Assembly (NCBI RefSeq): GCF_006517175.1
Contig: NZ_CP041186.1
Span: 4,553,074-4,617,073 of the forward strand
Direction of reading: 5' to 3'
Length of the DNA: 64,000 nt
DNA from: Persicimonas caeni
GTDB taxonomy: Bacteria > Myxococcota_A > Bradymonadia > Bradymonadales > Bradymonadaceae
Below the pieces are notes generated by a model. That model was not told the DNA's origin, did not search any database, and saw nothing but the letters and a program-made list of their open reading frames with translations. Shown piece by piece: positions 20,498 to 35,040 of the stretch. How positions within the stretch are numbered: the first letter of the stretch is position 1; each line of letters opens with the position of its first letter. A program made the translations under genes and the position numbers.

Positions 20498-20498
20498 C

Positions 20499-20703
20499 GG
20501 CCTTGCTGAAGAGTCACGCCATCTAAATGGGGCGCGCTGAAAAACGCGCGTTAAAGATTTAGGGGCTGCGAGTTGTAACGATGTAGAGGTTGCGAGTTGT
20601 GTCGGTTGCGAGTTGTGTCGACGTCACTACACGCAACCCCTATGTCCTTATCGCCCGCAGTTCAGGGCGCCCTATGTAGCAGGCGCTGCTCCCCGGCAAG
20701 GCT
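20499..20703. repeat. Family-A palindromic repeat element, copy 1
   Basis: An inverted pair. The left half begins GGCCTTGC at 20499; the right half ends with its complement GCAAGGC at 20697-20703. Each half carries a hairpin with an 8-nt loop beginning TGA: stem CGCGC/GCGCG on the left and CGCCC/GGGCG on the right. It fills most of the gap between the PanE-like gene and the histidine kinase. The middle has short direct copies of TTGCGAGTTGT. Confidence 0.85.
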
Positions 20704-23096: not shown

Positions 23097-23633
23097 TCAG
23101 TCGTTCGGCTCGCCGAACGTCGCCTCTGCGCACTCTTGGAAGTCGCCGGTGCCGTCGGGGGTGCGACACCAGGAGATCTCGGCGGCCAGGTCGGGCCAGG
23201 CGGTCTCGTCGAGGAGTTGGTCGTCGGCGTCGAATAGGCGCACGCCGTCCTCTTTGCCCAAGCCGAACTGGTGGTCGTCGGCCTCGACGAGCACCAGGTA
23301 CTCGCCCGGGGCCAGGGCGGTGCCGTCGGCGAAGTCGTAGCGATGGTCGGCCGGCTCGCCGGTGGCCGTGTCGTACGCGTCGTCGACGACGTACCAGCCG
23401 GAGATGTCGACCTCGGTCTCGCCGGTGTTGACGAGCTCGATGTTGTCGTCGCCGTCGGAGGTGATTTCGTTGAGGACGACCGGGCTCGCCGGCATTGCGG
23501 TCGTGTCTTCGGCGGTGGCGTCGGCGTCAGCGTCCTTGCCGGAGGCGTCGGCCTCCTCTTCGACTTTGGCGCCGCTGCAGGCGGTCAGGGTGATGATGAG
23601 CGAGACGAACAGAAATGTGTGTCGGGTGTTCAT
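23097..23633 (-). CDS. Lamin-tail-domain lipoprotein
   Basis: 178 aa. Lipobox LTAC with Cys19, then an Ala/Asp/Glu linker. A lamin-tail domain spans about residues 50-150 (VVLNEITSDGDDNIELVNTG, VDISGWYVVDD, ALAPGEYLVLVEADDHQFGL, VRLFDADDQLLDETAWP). Such domains bind extracellular or nucleic-acid partners and are common on bacterial surfaces. Its ATG overlaps the stop of the porin-like gene by 4 bp (ATGA), so it is translated from the same message. Confidence 0.88.
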   Translation of the reverse strand: MNTRHTFLFVSLIITLTACSGAKVEEEADASGKDADADATAEDTTAMPASPVVLNEITSDGDDNIELVNTGETEVDISGWYVVDDAYDTATGEPADHRYDFADGTALAPGEYLVLVEADDHQFGLGKEDGVRLFDADDQLLDETAWPDLAAEISWCRTPDGTGDFQECAEATFGEPND

Positions 23634-24763
23634 GGGGTCGTGTCGGTCGAAGAAGTAGCGATGATTCCGCGGGCTTCGACGGTCGCAAAGACCGTGTGGA
23701 TGTCGGCGGCGTCGGGCACGCCGGGCACCGGGCCCGCGCCCTCGCCGAACGAGTCGAGACGGTAGCCCACGTACAGGCGCAGGCGGCGCGCCTCGACGAA
23801 ATCGAGCGGGGGCAGAAGGTCGCCGAAGAGTCCGGCGCGCAGCGTGTCGATGGTGGCGTCGTTGGCGTCCAAGTCGGTGTCGAGATGGTCGTAGCGGCCG
23901 AAGGCGGCCAGCCAGGGGGGCAAGACGGCCACGTGGGCCCAGCCACCCAGAACTTGCGCCTCGCGCGAGCCGCGGTCCAGGTAGCCGAGGGCGCGCTCGT
24001 ACTCGACGCCGGCGCCCAACCGTGGGTGGCGGAAGGTTACCGCCCCCATGGCGCGGTGATTGCGAAGCTGGCCGGCCCCCGTCGAGCCGTCGCGGTAGCC
24101 TGCGTGGATGCCAAGCACGCCCTCACCCTCCCAGAAACGGACGTCGAGCGGGCGCAAGCCCACGGTGAACGTGGCGTTTTTGCCCTCGTTGAGCTCGACC
24201 TGGTTGCGGCCCTCGCCGTTGGTCATGCTCGCCCCGACGCGCAGCAGGCCGTCGAAGGCGGTGTAGTGGGCCGAGGCGCCCAGGTCGCTCGTGTCGAAGA
24301 AGAGGCTCGACTCGGCGGCCAGCGGCGCCAGGCCGCGAAGGTCGTAGCCGAACTCGACCGACTCGATCCAGATGTCGGGGATGAGGCCCGCGCGCAAGGT
24401 CGCAAAGCCGGGGCCGACCTCGGGCGTGGCGAAGCCGTAGCCGAACTTGAAGCGCGCCACGATCGAGTTCTGGTCGACGCCGAACAGGCTGTCGGGGCCG
24501 GCCGAGCGGATGCCCTCGAGGGCGACGTGGAACCCTGCAAGGTGCTGGAAATCGTACAGCACGTCGAGCTGGGCGCGGTCGAGCCGAAAGGCGTTGAACT
24601 CGGCGCTGTCGGTGGTGCTGTAGTCGTAGGTCGAGAAGAGCTGGCCGAAGGTGACCAGGCGGGTGGCCTCACGGGTCTCACTGGTCCCGCGGGTCTCGGA
24701 CGCCGCACACAGCGCGGACGTCAGCGTGGCGAGCAAGCAAATACAACTCAACAACAACTTCAC
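23630..24763 (-). CDS. Porin-like outer-membrane protein
   Basis: 377 aa. Signal peptide to about residue 22, then a beta-barrel pattern: RLVTFGQLFSTYDYSTTDS, FNAFRLDRAQLDVLYDFQHL, FGYGFATPEVGPGFATLRAG. The arrangement resembles phosphate-selective or general porins (OprO/OprP-like), but the C-terminus is not a classical aromatic ending. It overlaps both neighbours by 4 bp, in the order DUF2252, porin, lamin-tail. Confidence 0.78.
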   Translation of the reverse strand: MKLLLSCICLLATLTSALCAASETRGTSETREATRLVTFGQLFSTYDYSTTDSAEFNAFRLDRAQLDVLYDFQHLAGFHVALEGIRSAGPDSLFGVDQNSIVARFKFGYGFATPEVGPGFATLRAGLIPDIWIESVEFGYDLRGLAPLAAESSLFFDTSDLGASAHYTAFDGLLRVGASMTNGEGRNQVELNEGKNATFTVGLRPLDVRFWEGEGVLGIHAGYRDGSTGAGQLRNHRAMGAVTFRHPRLGAGVEYERALGYLDRGSREAQVLGGWAHVAVLPPWLAAFGRYDHLDTDLDANDATIDTLRAGLFGDLLPPLDFVEARRLRLYVGYRLDSFGEGAGPVPGVPDAADIHTVFATVEARGIIATSSTDTTP

Positions 24764-26205
24764 GGCGTTGCTCTCATTCGGCGCGCGCCGAGCAACGGCC
24801 CCTCGGCGTCGAGCAGGTCGACGAAGAGGGCGTAATCACTCATCACGCGGTCGGTATAGGATCGGGCGAACGTGGAGGTCTCGTCGACGAAGGCGTCTTC
24901 GCGCCCGTCGAGGGTGGCGGCGATGGCGGCGAGCGCGTCGCCGCCGTCGCGGCGCGGAGCGATGGCGTGGCTGCGGGCGAGCAGGCGCCCGGCGATCGTG
25001 GCGAAGCGGAGCACATGCTGGATGTCCCAGTCAGCCTCGGCCAGGCCCTCTTCGATGTCGGCGACGTCGAGGCCCTTTTGGTATTTGGTACGGTGGCGCA
25101 CCCGAAAGCTCAGGGTGTCGGAGGCCGCCCAGCCCAACAGCGGGTCATTCTTCGCGTCGATTTGCATGCGGCGTTGCGCGACGACGACGCGCTGGGCGTT
25201 GGTGTCGAATTGGCGCGGCGGCAGCTCCGCCAGGCGCGGAATGGCGGTGGGGTCGCGAATCTCTTTGAGCTCGAGCAGCCAGTCGTCGTCTCGCGAGTCG
25301 GTCGGCCCCTCGACGAGCGCATAGAACCGAAGCAGCGCATAACTCGCCACTCCGCCGCCCAAGCGGCGGCCGACGCCCTTGAGCTCGAACGCCCCGGCTG
25401 GCTGGGGCTCGACGAGCGTCTGCGGGTACTGGGCGACGAGGCGCTCGACGAGGCGCCGCTCGCGTGCGTCGACCTCGACGAGCTCGTCCTCGATGACGCC
25501 CTCGACGATGGGCGACTCGACCGCGCCGAAGAAGAGCCGGCGCCGACCGTCGCGCACACGGGTATACTCGAATAGGGCCTCCTTCTCGTCTCCGTCTTTG
25601 ATGGCGCCGTCGATGAGGTCGCCCAGAATGGGCCCCGGGAAGTTCGGGTCGACGCGATACGGCTCGGCGCCCCGGCTCATGCGCCCGATCTCGTCGACGT
25701 AGCCCCGCGCGGCCGCCTCGATGAGCGCGTCGCGGGTCGTGGTGTCGAGCTCCATCGTCTCGGCGGCCACCCCGAAGCCCACGCCGAGCCGGCGCACGTC
25801 GAAGTGAAACGGCCCGAAGCGCGCCCCGTCGAAGTCGTTGAACTCGACGTTCATCTCACCTTTGGCCGATCTGTAAGTGCCGATATTCTCCGGGTGCGGG
25901 TCGCCCATGAGCAACACGCCCGACGCGGCGCTCGAGCCGAACGCGGTCTGGCTGAAGGGGGCGTCGGCGTCGGTCAGGTCGCGGTAGAACTGGGCGTTGG
26001 TGCCGCGAAAATAGTAGTAGGGCAGTGACGCCATCTTGGCGAATTTGCCCGCGCTGAGCTCGGGCTCGCGCTCGATGACCAGAAGGTTGTCCTCGACGAG
26101 GGTCGTCTGCAGCCAGGCGGCGCGCTCGGAGTGTCGGGTCTCGCCGCTGCAGGCCCCGCAGAGTGCGGCGATGAGAAGGATGGGGGGAATGCGGTACAGC
26201 TTCAT
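24760..26205 (-). CDS. Exported DUF2252 lipoprotein
   Basis: 481 aa. Lipobox CGAC with Cys19. The DUF2252 marks follow: LPYYYFRGTNAQFYRDL, LLMGDPHPENIGTYRSA, VEFNDFDGARFGPFHFDVRRL. The GDPH/NDFD pattern recalls the kinase-like phosphotransferase fold of this family. Most DUF2252 proteins I know of lack a signal peptide; this one is predicted to be exported and lipid-anchored. It is the first gene of a three-gene overlapping operon with the porin and lamin-tail lipoprotein. Confidence 0.88.
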   Translation of the reverse strand: MKLYRIPPILLIAALCGACSGETRHSERAAWLQTTLVEDNLLVIEREPELSAGKFAKMASLPYYYFRGTNAQFYRDLTDADAPFSQTAFGSSAASGVLLMGDPHPENIGTYRSAKGEMNVEFNDFDGARFGPFHFDVRRLGVGFGVAAETMELDTTTRDALIEAAARGYVDEIGRMSRGAEPYRVDPNFPGPILGDLIDGAIKDGDEKEALFEYTRVRDGRRRLFFGAVESPIVEGVIEDELVEVDARERRLVERLVAQYPQTLVEPQPAGAFELKGVGRRLGGGVASYALLRFYALVEGPTDSRDDDWLLELKEIRDPTAIPRLAELPPRQFDTNAQRVVVAQRRMQIDAKNDPLLGWAASDTLSFRVRHRTKYQKGLDVADIEEGLAEADWDIQHVLRFATIAGRLLARSHAIAPRRDGGDALAAIAATLDGREDAFVDETSTFARSYTDRVMSDYALFVDLLDAEGPLLGARRMRATP

Positions 26206-26484: not shown

Positions 26485-26498
26485 AAACAGGGGGAGTG

Positions 26499-28412
26499 AT
26501 GTCACCATACATATTCGGGGTCCTTATCTCAGGGCTCTTTGTCCTTATCGGCGTCTCGGTCTTCTCCGTGGCCTATCTCTTCTCGGGCCGGAGCGTTTTC
26601 CGCGAATGGGAGTGGCGCAAGGCGGTGTTCGTCACCACTGCGGCCGCGCTGTTGCTCCTGATGATCTCGCCGCTGATGTTCATTTTGCTGTTTCACGACG
26701 TGAACTTGGCGCAGGAGGGTGAGCGTGGCGAACAGCAGCAGGCCGTCTTAGATGAGGCGGGGGAAGGAGAAGATGCTACCGAAACAATCGAAGCCACCGA
26801 GAAGAAGGAGTTGATCGAGCGCGTGGTCAACTACGCGTTGGTGCCGTTTCTTCTCGCGGCGTTTGCGCTCGGGCTTGTCGTCGGTACCTATCCTCAGTTG
26901 AACTTGCGTTGGATTCTCTGGCGTGAGGTGCGCCACAAGAGGGGCTTGAAGTTTCCCCTCTTCAGCTACGGTAATTCGTGGCGCATGTTCTTCAACAAGC
27001 TCAAGCTGAATGGGCTCATCGAGGTTGGCCTTCGAGAGGAACACGGCGACGACGAGGGGCAGCGTGTGCGTCGAGTGATCGGCCAGTTGGCGGCTACCTC
27101 CGTGTCCGGCACCGACGCCGACTTCGTTCTCCGTAACCCAAGAACTCTCGAAGACAGCTCGCGCTTGGACGTCGACAAAGCGCTCGACGAGAATTGGATG
27201 CCTGACGAAACGCTCGAGATCTTCACGAAGGAGTCGAAGGTTCTCTATCTACGCTGTCCTCCAGAGTCCCTTCAGGTCCACGCTGAGCCGATCAACCATC
27301 TCGCCCAGGCCTACTTTTTGGCGCAGACTTCAATTGGTTTTGGACTCTTCGGTTGGGCTACCTTCCTGACCTACAAATTTCTGGAAGGAGTCGGCTTGGG
27401 GGATGTCGCTGTTGTCTACGGCCTCATGACAGTGCTTTTTCTGGTGACTTGCGGGGCTTTTTGTGTACTCGCCTTCTCCGTAAGGCGTTACGACTTCGGC
27501 GAATCGCTCAGCATGCAGAGCTTTCTAAGCAGTTTCAGCGGCTGGACGATCACTCCGACGACATGGACAACGGTCTTTCTCGCCGCCTACTTCTTCGTCG
27601 CCTCCTTGCTCTTCGGGGCCACCTGGCTTCTCTGGGGAGAGGTCGACCGCGGTTTGATGGTGGATTTCCTGTTGGTGCTGCTCGTAGGATTATTCTCCGT
27701 GGGCTTAATCAACACCGGGGTCTACTTCTGCTGTTTCAGCAAAGACAGAAGCTCCGGAGGGCGTCGTTTATCAAAGGGGAGGGTGATGCTGGGGGTCATC
27801 GTAGGGCTGTTGTGGCTCGGGTTTCTTGGGGTAGCAGTGTACTACTTGGCGAACGTGCCGCTGGGTGGAGCAGAACAGACCGATGTCTACCAAGCCGGGC
27901 TCGTCATAGCCGCAGGGGCTGCCATCATTTGGCTGTTCATTCGCGTCTGTACGCGCATCAAGCGGGTGCGAGTCAAAAGGCATTTTTGCCAGATCGTTCG
28001 AGATGTAGAGGAGGTCTTCCTCGAATCTGGTGATCTCGACGGTACGGCGTCCGAGTCGAATCTGGCCAGGGCGAGAAACAAACGCAGTGCGCGCAGCAAA
28101 GCCCGGCTTGCGCTCAAGCGGGCTGCTCTTCGGCTCTACTTACGCCAAGATCTCAACGACGACCACTTCATCTACGACCGTGAGTTCGAGAAAGGCTGGT
28201 GCGTTGAAAAACCGTCTCCTCCGAAGATCCGTACTAGGGAAAACGAGCGGGAGGTCAAAGAACTCGAGGGCTATCTCCTCGAGCGGCTGTTATGTGTGGT
28301 CTATCAAAGTGGGCTGGAAGGGGCGACGACTCAGGTGATCGAATGGTTCTGTGACTACCTGCGCATCACGTATTTTGTGAGTGGGGACTTTGCCCGAGAG
28401 TGTGATCGATGA
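26499..28412 (+). CDS. Multi-span membrane protein of unknown function
   Basis: 637 aa from the ATG at 26499 (a GTG one codon earlier is possible). Two N-terminal spans (residues about 5-30 and 45-67) flank a Glu-rich loop, and a further span lies near 110-130. A soluble stretch of about 110 residues follows. Five more spans lie between about 275 and 490. The C-terminal 145 residues are soluble, basic then mixed-charge, and rich in Arg/Lys (KSARSKARLALKRAALRLYL). No family is recognised. GC content and codon choice are lower than the neighbours, which suggests a different origin. It is flanked by a palindromic operator-like site and a repeat-rich region. Confidence 0.75.
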   Translation: MSPYIFGVLISGLFVLIGVSVFSVAYLFSGRSVFREWEWRKAVFVTTAAALLLLMISPLMFILLFHDVNLAQEGERGEQQQAVLDEAGEGEDATETIEATEKKELIERVVNYALVPFLLAAFALGLVVGTYPQLNLRWILWREVRHKRGLKFPLFSYGNSWRMFFNKLKLNGLIEVGLREEHGDDEGQRVRRVIGQLAATSVSGTDADFVLRNPRTLEDSSRLDVDKALDENWMPDETLEIFTKESKVLYLRCPPESLQVHAEPINHLAQAYFLAQTSIGFGLFGWATFLTYKFLEGVGLGDVAVVYGLMTVLFLVTCGAFCVLAFSVRRYDFGESLSMQSFLSSFSGWTITPTTWTTVFLAAYFFVASLLFGATWLLWGEVDRGLMVDFLLVLLVGLFSVGLINTGVYFCCFSKDRSSGGRRLSKGRVMLGVIVGLLWLGFLGVAVYYLANVPLGGAEQTDVYQAGLVIAAGAAIIWLFIRVCTRIKRVRVKRHFCQIVRDVEEVFLESGDLDGTASESNLARARNKRSARSKARLALKRAALRLYLRQDLNDDHFIYDREFEKGWCVEKPSPPKIRTRENEREVKELEGYLLERLLCVVYQSGLEGATTQVIEWFCDYLRITYFVSGDFARECDR

Positions 28413-29853: not shown

Positions 29854-29866
29854 TGAGCGATGCGAT

Positions 29867-30198
29867 GGCCTTGCAGGGGCGTGGCTCCTGCTATTTAGGG
29901 CGCCCTGAAAAGCGGGCGATAAGGATTTGGGGGTTGCGTGTTGCGACGAGGTTCCGATTCGAAGCGCCTGCTATTTAGGGCGCCCTGAAAAGCGGGCGAT
30001 AAGGATTTGGGGGTTGCGTGTTGCGACGAGGTTCCGATTCGCAGCGCCCGCTATTAGGGGCGAGGGCTGGAAAGCGCCCTCGAAGGCCATTAGTGAGTCG
30101 TTTCGTTGCGGCGTATGTGGTGCATTGAAACGACTCCATAATGGCCTGCGCCGCAGTTCAGGCGCCCCTAATAGATGGCGTGACTCTTCTGCAAGGCC
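29867..30198. repeat. Family-A palindromic repeat element, copy 2 (composite)
   Basis: Ends GGCCTTGCAGG (29867-29877) and TCTGCAAGGCC (30188-30198) are inverted. The left half is duplicated as an exact-length 80-bp tandem (29887-29966 and 29967-30046). A third hairpin, stem CGAGGGC/GCCCTCG, and a right-half hairpin, stem GCGCC/GGCGC, follow. All hairpins keep an 8-nt loop beginning TGA or TGG. A further inverted pair, GAGTCGTTTC (30095-30104) and GAAACGACTC (30127-30136), lies inside. Confidence 0.88.
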
Positions 30199-33584: not shown

Positions 33585-33598
33585 TTGTGCGACGCGGC

Positions 33599-33767
33599 GG
33601 CCTTGCAGGAGCGCGGCGCCATCTAAATGGGGCGCGCTGGAAAACGCGCGATAAGGACATGAGGGCTGCGAATTGGGACGTGGTCTTGGTTCGAAGCGCC
33701 GGCTCCTTAATGGCCCGCGCCGCAGTTCAGGCGCCCCTAATAGATGGCGCCACTAACCTGCAAGGCC
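33599..33767. repeat. Family-A palindromic repeat element, copy 3
   Basis: A 169-bp element with inverted ends GGCCTTGCAGG (33599-33609) and CCTGCAAGGCC (33757-33767). The similarity between arms continues inward through GCGCCATCTA. Left hairpin stem CGCGC/GCGCG with loop TGGAAAAC; right hairpin (read on the minus strand) stem GCGCC/GGCGC with loop TGAACTGC. Confidence 0.9.
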
Positions 33768-34942: not shown

Positions 34943-35040
34943 GCTGCGCCTGCTACATGGGGCGCGCTGAACGACGCGCTCGGAGGACATAGGAGTTGCG
35001 TATCGCGACTTGGTTCCAACTCGCAGCCCTGATGTCCTTC
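34943..35040. repeat. Degenerate family-A repeat, copy 4
   Basis: A left half starting GCTGCGCCTGCTACATGGGG, with a shortened hairpin (GCGC stem, loop TGAACGAC) and the trailing GGACATAGGAGTTGCG. A right remnant TCGCAGCCCTGATGTCCTT follows. The full inverted ends are missing. It lies in the divergent gap between the paraoxonase-like gene and the 318-aa lipoprotein. Confidence 0.75.

Follow-up and report, generated by a model that had tools for sequence, protein, structure and literature searches.

A three-gene unit encoding a protein of the DUF2252 family (PF10009), a porin and a lamin-tail-domain (LTD) lipoprotein was analysed in a 64,000-nucleotide stretch of the Persicimonas caeni genome (contig NZ_CP041186.1, positions 4,553,074 to 4,617,073; hereafter the window, in whose numbering positions are given). 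The genome used here is a single contig of 8,047,206 bp, and the organism is described as a predatory member of the Bradymonadales (PMC7188933). The unit had been proposed from the letters of the window (the original prediction), and all three genes were found, as proposed, on the minus strand of 23097-26205: the DUF2252 gene (24760-26205; 481 amino acids), the porin gene (23630-24763; 377 amino acids, with a Sec-type signal peptide) and the LTD gene (23097-23633; 178 amino acids). Two ATGA overlaps had been described between these genes; that at the porin stop and LTD start (23630-23633) is indeed ATGA, while that at the DUF2252 stop and porin start (24760-24763) reads GTGA, indicating that the porin start codon is GTG.

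Residues 46-463 of the DUF2252 protein matched positions 1-391 of the 392-position PF10009 profile (E 8e-60, 203.4 bits against a cut-off of 22.3). The N-terminus, MKLYRIPPILLIAALCGAC/S, contains a hydrophobic segment preceding a lipobox cysteine, and the predicted signal peptide (26149-26205, minus strand) ends in the lipid-anchor residue Cys19 (LCGA/C-S); the residue at -3 is also a cysteine, which is atypical and slightly off the textbook lipobox. Relatives were drawn from a first sample of 95 genomes, analysed with six-frame profiles (which located the genes at L040-L042, L063 and L064) and inspection of N-termini, and from a second sample of 80 loci; several contigs are common to both, so counts were not summed. 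An alignment of 50 exported members consisted of 49 of the 80 loci and the P. caeni protein, to which the others are 26-49% identical, and omitted 15 cytoplasmic loci (L128-L142) and 16 others that were broken, truncated or divergent. The lipobox column holds cysteine in 48 of these 50 sequences and the remaining two have a cysteine a few residues away, which together with the hydrophobic segment supports the predicted export and lipid anchoring of the protein. That the signal peptide might stem from a wrongly chosen start is refuted by the constant distance between the anchor cysteine and the domain across the clade; the start at 26205 is the furthest upstream in its frame and any later one cuts the conserved region. 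Export was called by a rule of our own rather than by a dedicated signal-peptide predictor, and this rule missed short signals in L110, L121 and L124 and, through an anchor error, the signal of L115.

The phosphotransferase-like motifs named in the original prediction, GDPH (residues 101-104) and NDFD (residues 123-126), were both present. In the 50-row alignment the first forms part of a putative catalytic loop, GDPHPENIG (residues 101-109; 25879-25905, minus strand as for all the following), the second is the predicted metal-binding motif (25828-25839), and K314-E315 (25261-25266) contains a candidate beta-3 lysine; a glycine-rich loop, RRLGGGVAS (residues 280-288; 25342-25368), lies downstream of the catalytic loop, in permuted order. 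Kinase roles were assigned to these residues by alignment to APH proteins and from general features of kinases, and on this assignment the catalytic Asp and Asn, the metal Asp, the glycine loop and the beta-3 Lys candidate are all present. Residues D102, H104, E106, N107, G109, D124 and D126 are invariant in 50/50 exported members, confirming retention of the GDxHxEN and D-x-D residues, and G283, G285, S288, R293, R339, H413 and Asp457 are equally fixed. The 24 cytoplasmic relatives keep D102, H104, N107, G109, D124, D126, G285 and S288, with E106 kept in 23 (one E106A), R293 and R339 in 22, H413 in 11, and a gap in place of G283 in 23.

The candidate lysine column is more variable, being Lys in 38/50 exported members and Arg in the other 12 (L081, L098, L099, L105, L107, L110, L113, L116, L121, L124, L126 and L127). 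Lysine is found at position 368 in 9/12 of the Arg-314 group versus 3/38 of the Lys-314 group, and arginine at position 370 in 31/38 of the Lys-314 group but only 2/12 of the Arg-314 group. This pattern looks like a re-tuned site, possibly with relocation of the nucleotide-binding lysine to 368; the Arg-314 group is mostly one clade and the change may therefore represent a single event.

An AlphaFold2 model of DUF2252 generated from 50 sequences (predicted local distance difference test, pLDDT, 94.6) places the catalytic loop (approximately residues 97-131) before an N-lobe-like sheet (approximately residues 245-375), the reverse of the order in ordinary kinases. A published remark assigns DUF2252 to the PKinase clan and describes its lobes as flipped (PMC9758233); in passages of two other sources, circular permutation is treated in general terms (PMC1079889) and DUF2252 is merely listed among domains of unknown function (PMC13118837). 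When a profile of 13 APH proteins, extracted by a motif rule out of 48 loci, was compared with DUF2252 by hhalign, the catalytic stretch aligned with P 8e-4 and the alpha-E 'LLARxH' helix with P 0.015, in swapped order; after the halves of DUF2252 were swapped the catalytic stretch aligned with P 1.8e-5 and the helix more weakly (P 0.25). VIA-align gave a weak match of residues 245-374 to the YtaA N-lobe (Z 5.1 over 89 residues), its other rows being mostly common arrangements such as chaperonins and cystatins. A sequence search of solved structures with the DUF2252 protein and a 24-row alignment, in which L050 was included with a truncated start, gave no matches at E up to 10. Taken from the published remark and the profile comparison, DUF2252 would have a kinase fold whose lobes are swapped in sequence.

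The AlphaFold model of the second protein is a barrel of 16 strands (pLDDT 87.0) with a long L3-like loop, and Foldseek matched it to general porins with a best E of 1.4e-10, in agreement with its original designation as a porin. The P. caeni protein had no Pfam match, and among 19 family members one matched Porin_4 (E 0.00086) and one BBP2 (E 0.0047); the porin alignment gave no matches to the sequences of solved structures at E up to 10. The most conserved segments are L2 (residues 87-100) and L4 (residues 182-195, NGEGRNQVELNEGK; 24179-24220, minus strand), with information of 2.83 and 3.07 respectively against a mean of 1.83, and random segment pairs were as conserved in only 5/20000 draws. 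Both are presumably exposed loops, judging by the usual porin topology, and conservation of exposed loops is unusual in porins, suggesting that L2 and L4 may make contact with a partner or within a trimer.

The third gene had been described as encoding a lamin-tail lipoprotein, which is upheld by a match to PF00932 (E 4e-15, 56.6 bits against a cut-off of 34.3) and a lipobox, ACSGA. All 12 aligned relatives match PF00932 at E 0.01 or better and keep the cysteine and following serine after the signal. Several relatives have two LTD matches, and frames at L050:1-8475 (minus strand) and L053:11316-16421 (plus strand), downstream of the porin, have three spread over thousands of bases; these would be giant multi-LTD proteins of one lineage.

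In the first sample PF10009 was present in 32 of the 95 genomes and an exported DUF2252 in 24, a count made by hand that omits G007 (no signal, no porin), the divergent G043 and G049, and L062, a divergent second G004 copy with a signal peptide and no porin nearby. The porin family was present in 24/24 of these genomes and encoded directly downstream in 23/24; in G076 the two genes are at separate places and the porin is found with two LTD matches. Strong porin matches (E < 1e-40) were obtained in 25/95 genomes, namely the same 24 and G045, where an 85-residue DUF2252 remnant lies upstream of the porin and an LTD downstream, and weak matches in six further genomes.

In the second sample, the porin was next in 45/50 loci called exported by the rule, each with 400 bp or more of contig after DUF2252, versus 6/24 rule-negative loci (Fisher p 3.6e-8), indicating an arrangement far beyond chance. 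Two of the six rule-negative loci with a porin have an N-terminus cut by the contig end (L093, L097), and the other four (L110, L115, L121, L124) have lipoprotein-like starts overlooked by the rule. No porin was adjacent in any of 17 clearly cytoplasmic loci (L117, L122 and L128-L142; L117 has only 100 bp downstream). Where a porin is present and the contig extends 3 kb or more downstream, LTD follows in 30/36 loci, and the DUF2252/porin spacing is -4 in 33/50 loci. Thus the trio, whose conservation in relatives had been set as a test of the proposal, is conserved together with its four-base DUF2252/porin overlap, and it is an old unit inherited together across families of the phylum Myxococcota; the named organisms carrying the loci are Myxococcota or metagenome-assembled genomes labelled as delta- or other proteobacteria.

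Variant arrangements were also seen. Downstream of a divergent DUF2252 paralogue (L125:6959-8245), a DUF2490 protein occupies the position of the porin and LTD comes next. At L123:6377-7615 a shortened DUF2252 and an LTD stretch share a single open frame and no porin separates them, which could reflect a fusion, a deletion or an assembly fault. The LTD slot is filled after a gap of approximately 100 bp by a large open reading frame in L065 and L068, that of L065 matching M14 carboxypeptidase, and in L086 it holds an unrelated lipoprotein.

A tree was built from 78 DUF2252 domains, with signal peptides excluded; 10 of the 80 loci (broken or truncated) were omitted, and seven cytoplasmic loci and the P. 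caeni protein were added. A branch with 99% support in the Shimodaira-Hasegawa-like approximate likelihood ratio test (SH-aLRT) split the exported type (53 rows, including P. caeni) from the 25 others, which comprise 24 cytoplasmic proteins and L119. Exported DUF2252s therefore form one supported clade of one origin. L119:3387-4853, outside this clade, encodes a DUF2252 whose N-terminus is lipoprotein-like and that lacks a porin, and appears to represent a second, independent export. Divergence of DUF2252 and of the porin was correlated (Spearman 0.69 over 41 rows, being 40 of the 50 porins and that of P. caeni; 0/2000 permutations as high), which fits joint vertical inheritance; shared species ancestry alone can produce such a correlation, so it does not in itself demonstrate interaction.

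Neighbouring genes were considered as further members of the unit and rejected. A SnoaL-like gene at 22965-22528 is separated by a 131 bp gap and lies beside the trio in none of the relatives listed. The other, at 26496-28412 on the plus strand, is an open reading frame of 638 residues oriented divergently to the DUF2252 gene; its product has hydrophobic segments and did not match Pfam significantly. A scan for promoters and terminators gave nothing clearly exceeding shuffled sequence. A family of dispersed repeats of approximately 54-94 nt and 65-87% identity is found between genes (20498-20591, 29866-29959, 29946-30039, 33598-33691 and 34947-35000), with inverted copies also present.

Exported and cytoplasmic DUF2252 proteins alike match the profile along its full length and carry GDxHxEN, NDxD, GxxS and the lysine, but the exported clade has its own porin, its separate branch, the extra glycine G283 and the fixed His413 and Asp457. 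With kinases of the APH, YtaA and NahK type DUF2252 has in common an HGDxxxxN-like catalytic loop, DxD, the alpha-E 'LLARxHA' and an N-lobe-like sheet, whereas here it is exported with lobes in swapped order, and the similarity is weak. CotH is a secreted kinase, and neither CotH nor Fam20C is known to be permuted. In its location outside the cytosol the predicted exported DUF2252 resembles both, Fam20C being a kinase fold active there (PMC7948968). It differs from them in being predicted to be lipid-anchored and encoded with a porin, and its Pfam scan matched PF10009 only, with no match to the Fam20C or CotH families. The porin shares 16 strands and the long L3-like loop with the general porins OmpF, Omp32 and PorB (Foldseek E approximately 1e-9 to 1e-10), but unlike them it has no Pfam match, has conserved exposed loops and is encoded with a putative lipoprotein enzyme. 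The pairing of a lipoprotein with an outer-membrane barrel is also seen in RcsF and OmpA; to our knowledge those pairs include no enzyme and no operon of the trio's kind.

Co-inheritance and conserved coupling of the genes, predicted export of all three products, intact active-site residues and, in the model, the barrel fold are established. The explanation we favour, with about even confidence, is that the trio forms a Myxococcota outer-membrane module around an active, lipid-anchored, permuted phosphotransferase, with the barrel and LTD proteins as partners. In this module, inherited as a unit, DUF2252 would be an extracytoplasmic enzyme whose swapped-lobe kinase fold retains its metal and nucleotide site, acting as a metal- and nucleotide-dependent transferase, and the three proteins may act together in a physical complex. 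Most likely it would be located on the periplasmic side of the outer membrane, next to the co-translated 16-strand barrel. Through this barrel the donor of phosphate, the small molecule that is modified, or both may enter; in predatory lineages, nucleotides released from lysed prey would be one plausible example. The LTD lipoprotein, with its lipid-anchored Ig-like domain, could provide a docking or surface partner.

Several observations weigh against this explanation. No ATP is expected beyond the cytoplasm, 12/50 members have Arg in place of the candidate lysine, and an Asp follows the lipid cysteine in 5/48, a residue that in E. coli directs retention in the inner membrane. Five of 50 exported loci lack an adjacent porin (L096, L116, L119, L123 and L127) and 6/36 lack LTD (L065, L068, L080, L086, L095 and L112). 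As regards the fold, the hhalign scores against APH were only modest, single permuted DUF2252 sequences matched no Pfam kinase family besides DUF2252 itself, and Foldseek with the whole DUF2252 model returned only chance rows, none significant, a failure expected of a permutation but equally of a distant fold.

A more specific form of the favoured explanation, possible but on the unlikely side, is an extracytoplasmic circularly permuted kinase system, the first of its kind, in which DUF2252 with its dedicated pore would phosphorylate incoming molecules or surface proteins using a donor from outside, such as ATP from lysed prey, and LTD would be a surface or docking subunit. Three rivals are each judged unlikely, and to the same degree. 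DUF2252 could be a pseudoenzyme, with a kinase fold whose only role is structural, as a scaffold or adaptor of the barrel and LTD proteins in the periplasm. The expected lack of ATP, the Arg-314 members and the structural nature of the barrel and lipoprotein partners are consistent with this, but the catalytic Asp and Asn and the two metal Asp residues do not vary in any of the 50 members at 26-49% identity, unlike in typical pseudokinases, and the enrichment of Lys-368 among Arg-314 members is as if the site were re-tuned and not lost. A similarly doubtful option is that the enzyme uses another donor outside the cell (pyrophosphate, polyphosphate, phosphoenolpyruvate or a lipid pyrophosphate), or performs nucleotidylation instead of phosphorylation. 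The site is intact although ATP is not expected there, and AMP-transferring kinase-fold enzymes such as SelO exist; against this, the Pfam comparison gave no match to any such family and the neighbouring genes hold no hint of a donor. Equally improbable is that the barrel acts as a display conduit, with DUF2252 and LTD threaded to the surface through or with the porin, in the manner of RcsF with OmpA or porins, and DUF2252 acting outside, as the lipoprotein-barrel-lipoprotein order with four-base overlaps, the conserved exposed loops L2 and L4 and the precedent of surface-exposed RcsF with OmpA (PMC7553776) could suggest; a folded 450-residue domain is, however, too large for a 16-strand pore, and the L125 paralogue has a small DUF2490 protein instead of a porin. 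Least probable, and by our estimate very unlikely, is mere co-transcription of envelope genes without joint function, for which the variable LTD slot (M14 carboxypeptidase in L065, an unrelated lipoprotein in L086) and the separation of DUF2252 from porin-LTD-LTD in G076 would speak, but order and coupling are retained across families of the phylum and DUF2252 and porin co-occur in 24/24 genomes, even where separated.

DUF2252 proteins, porins and LTD are each known already; a literature search that lacked most subscription journals found no description of an exported porin-coupled DUF2252 module. With this module, an uncharacterised kinase-fold family acquires a constant setting in the cell and two evident partners, and a sharp question is raised as to how an enzyme whose kinase active site is intact works outside the cytoplasm. 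The module may bring to light phosphorylation in the envelope, or chemistry resembling group translocation, in a phylum with many predatory bacteria.

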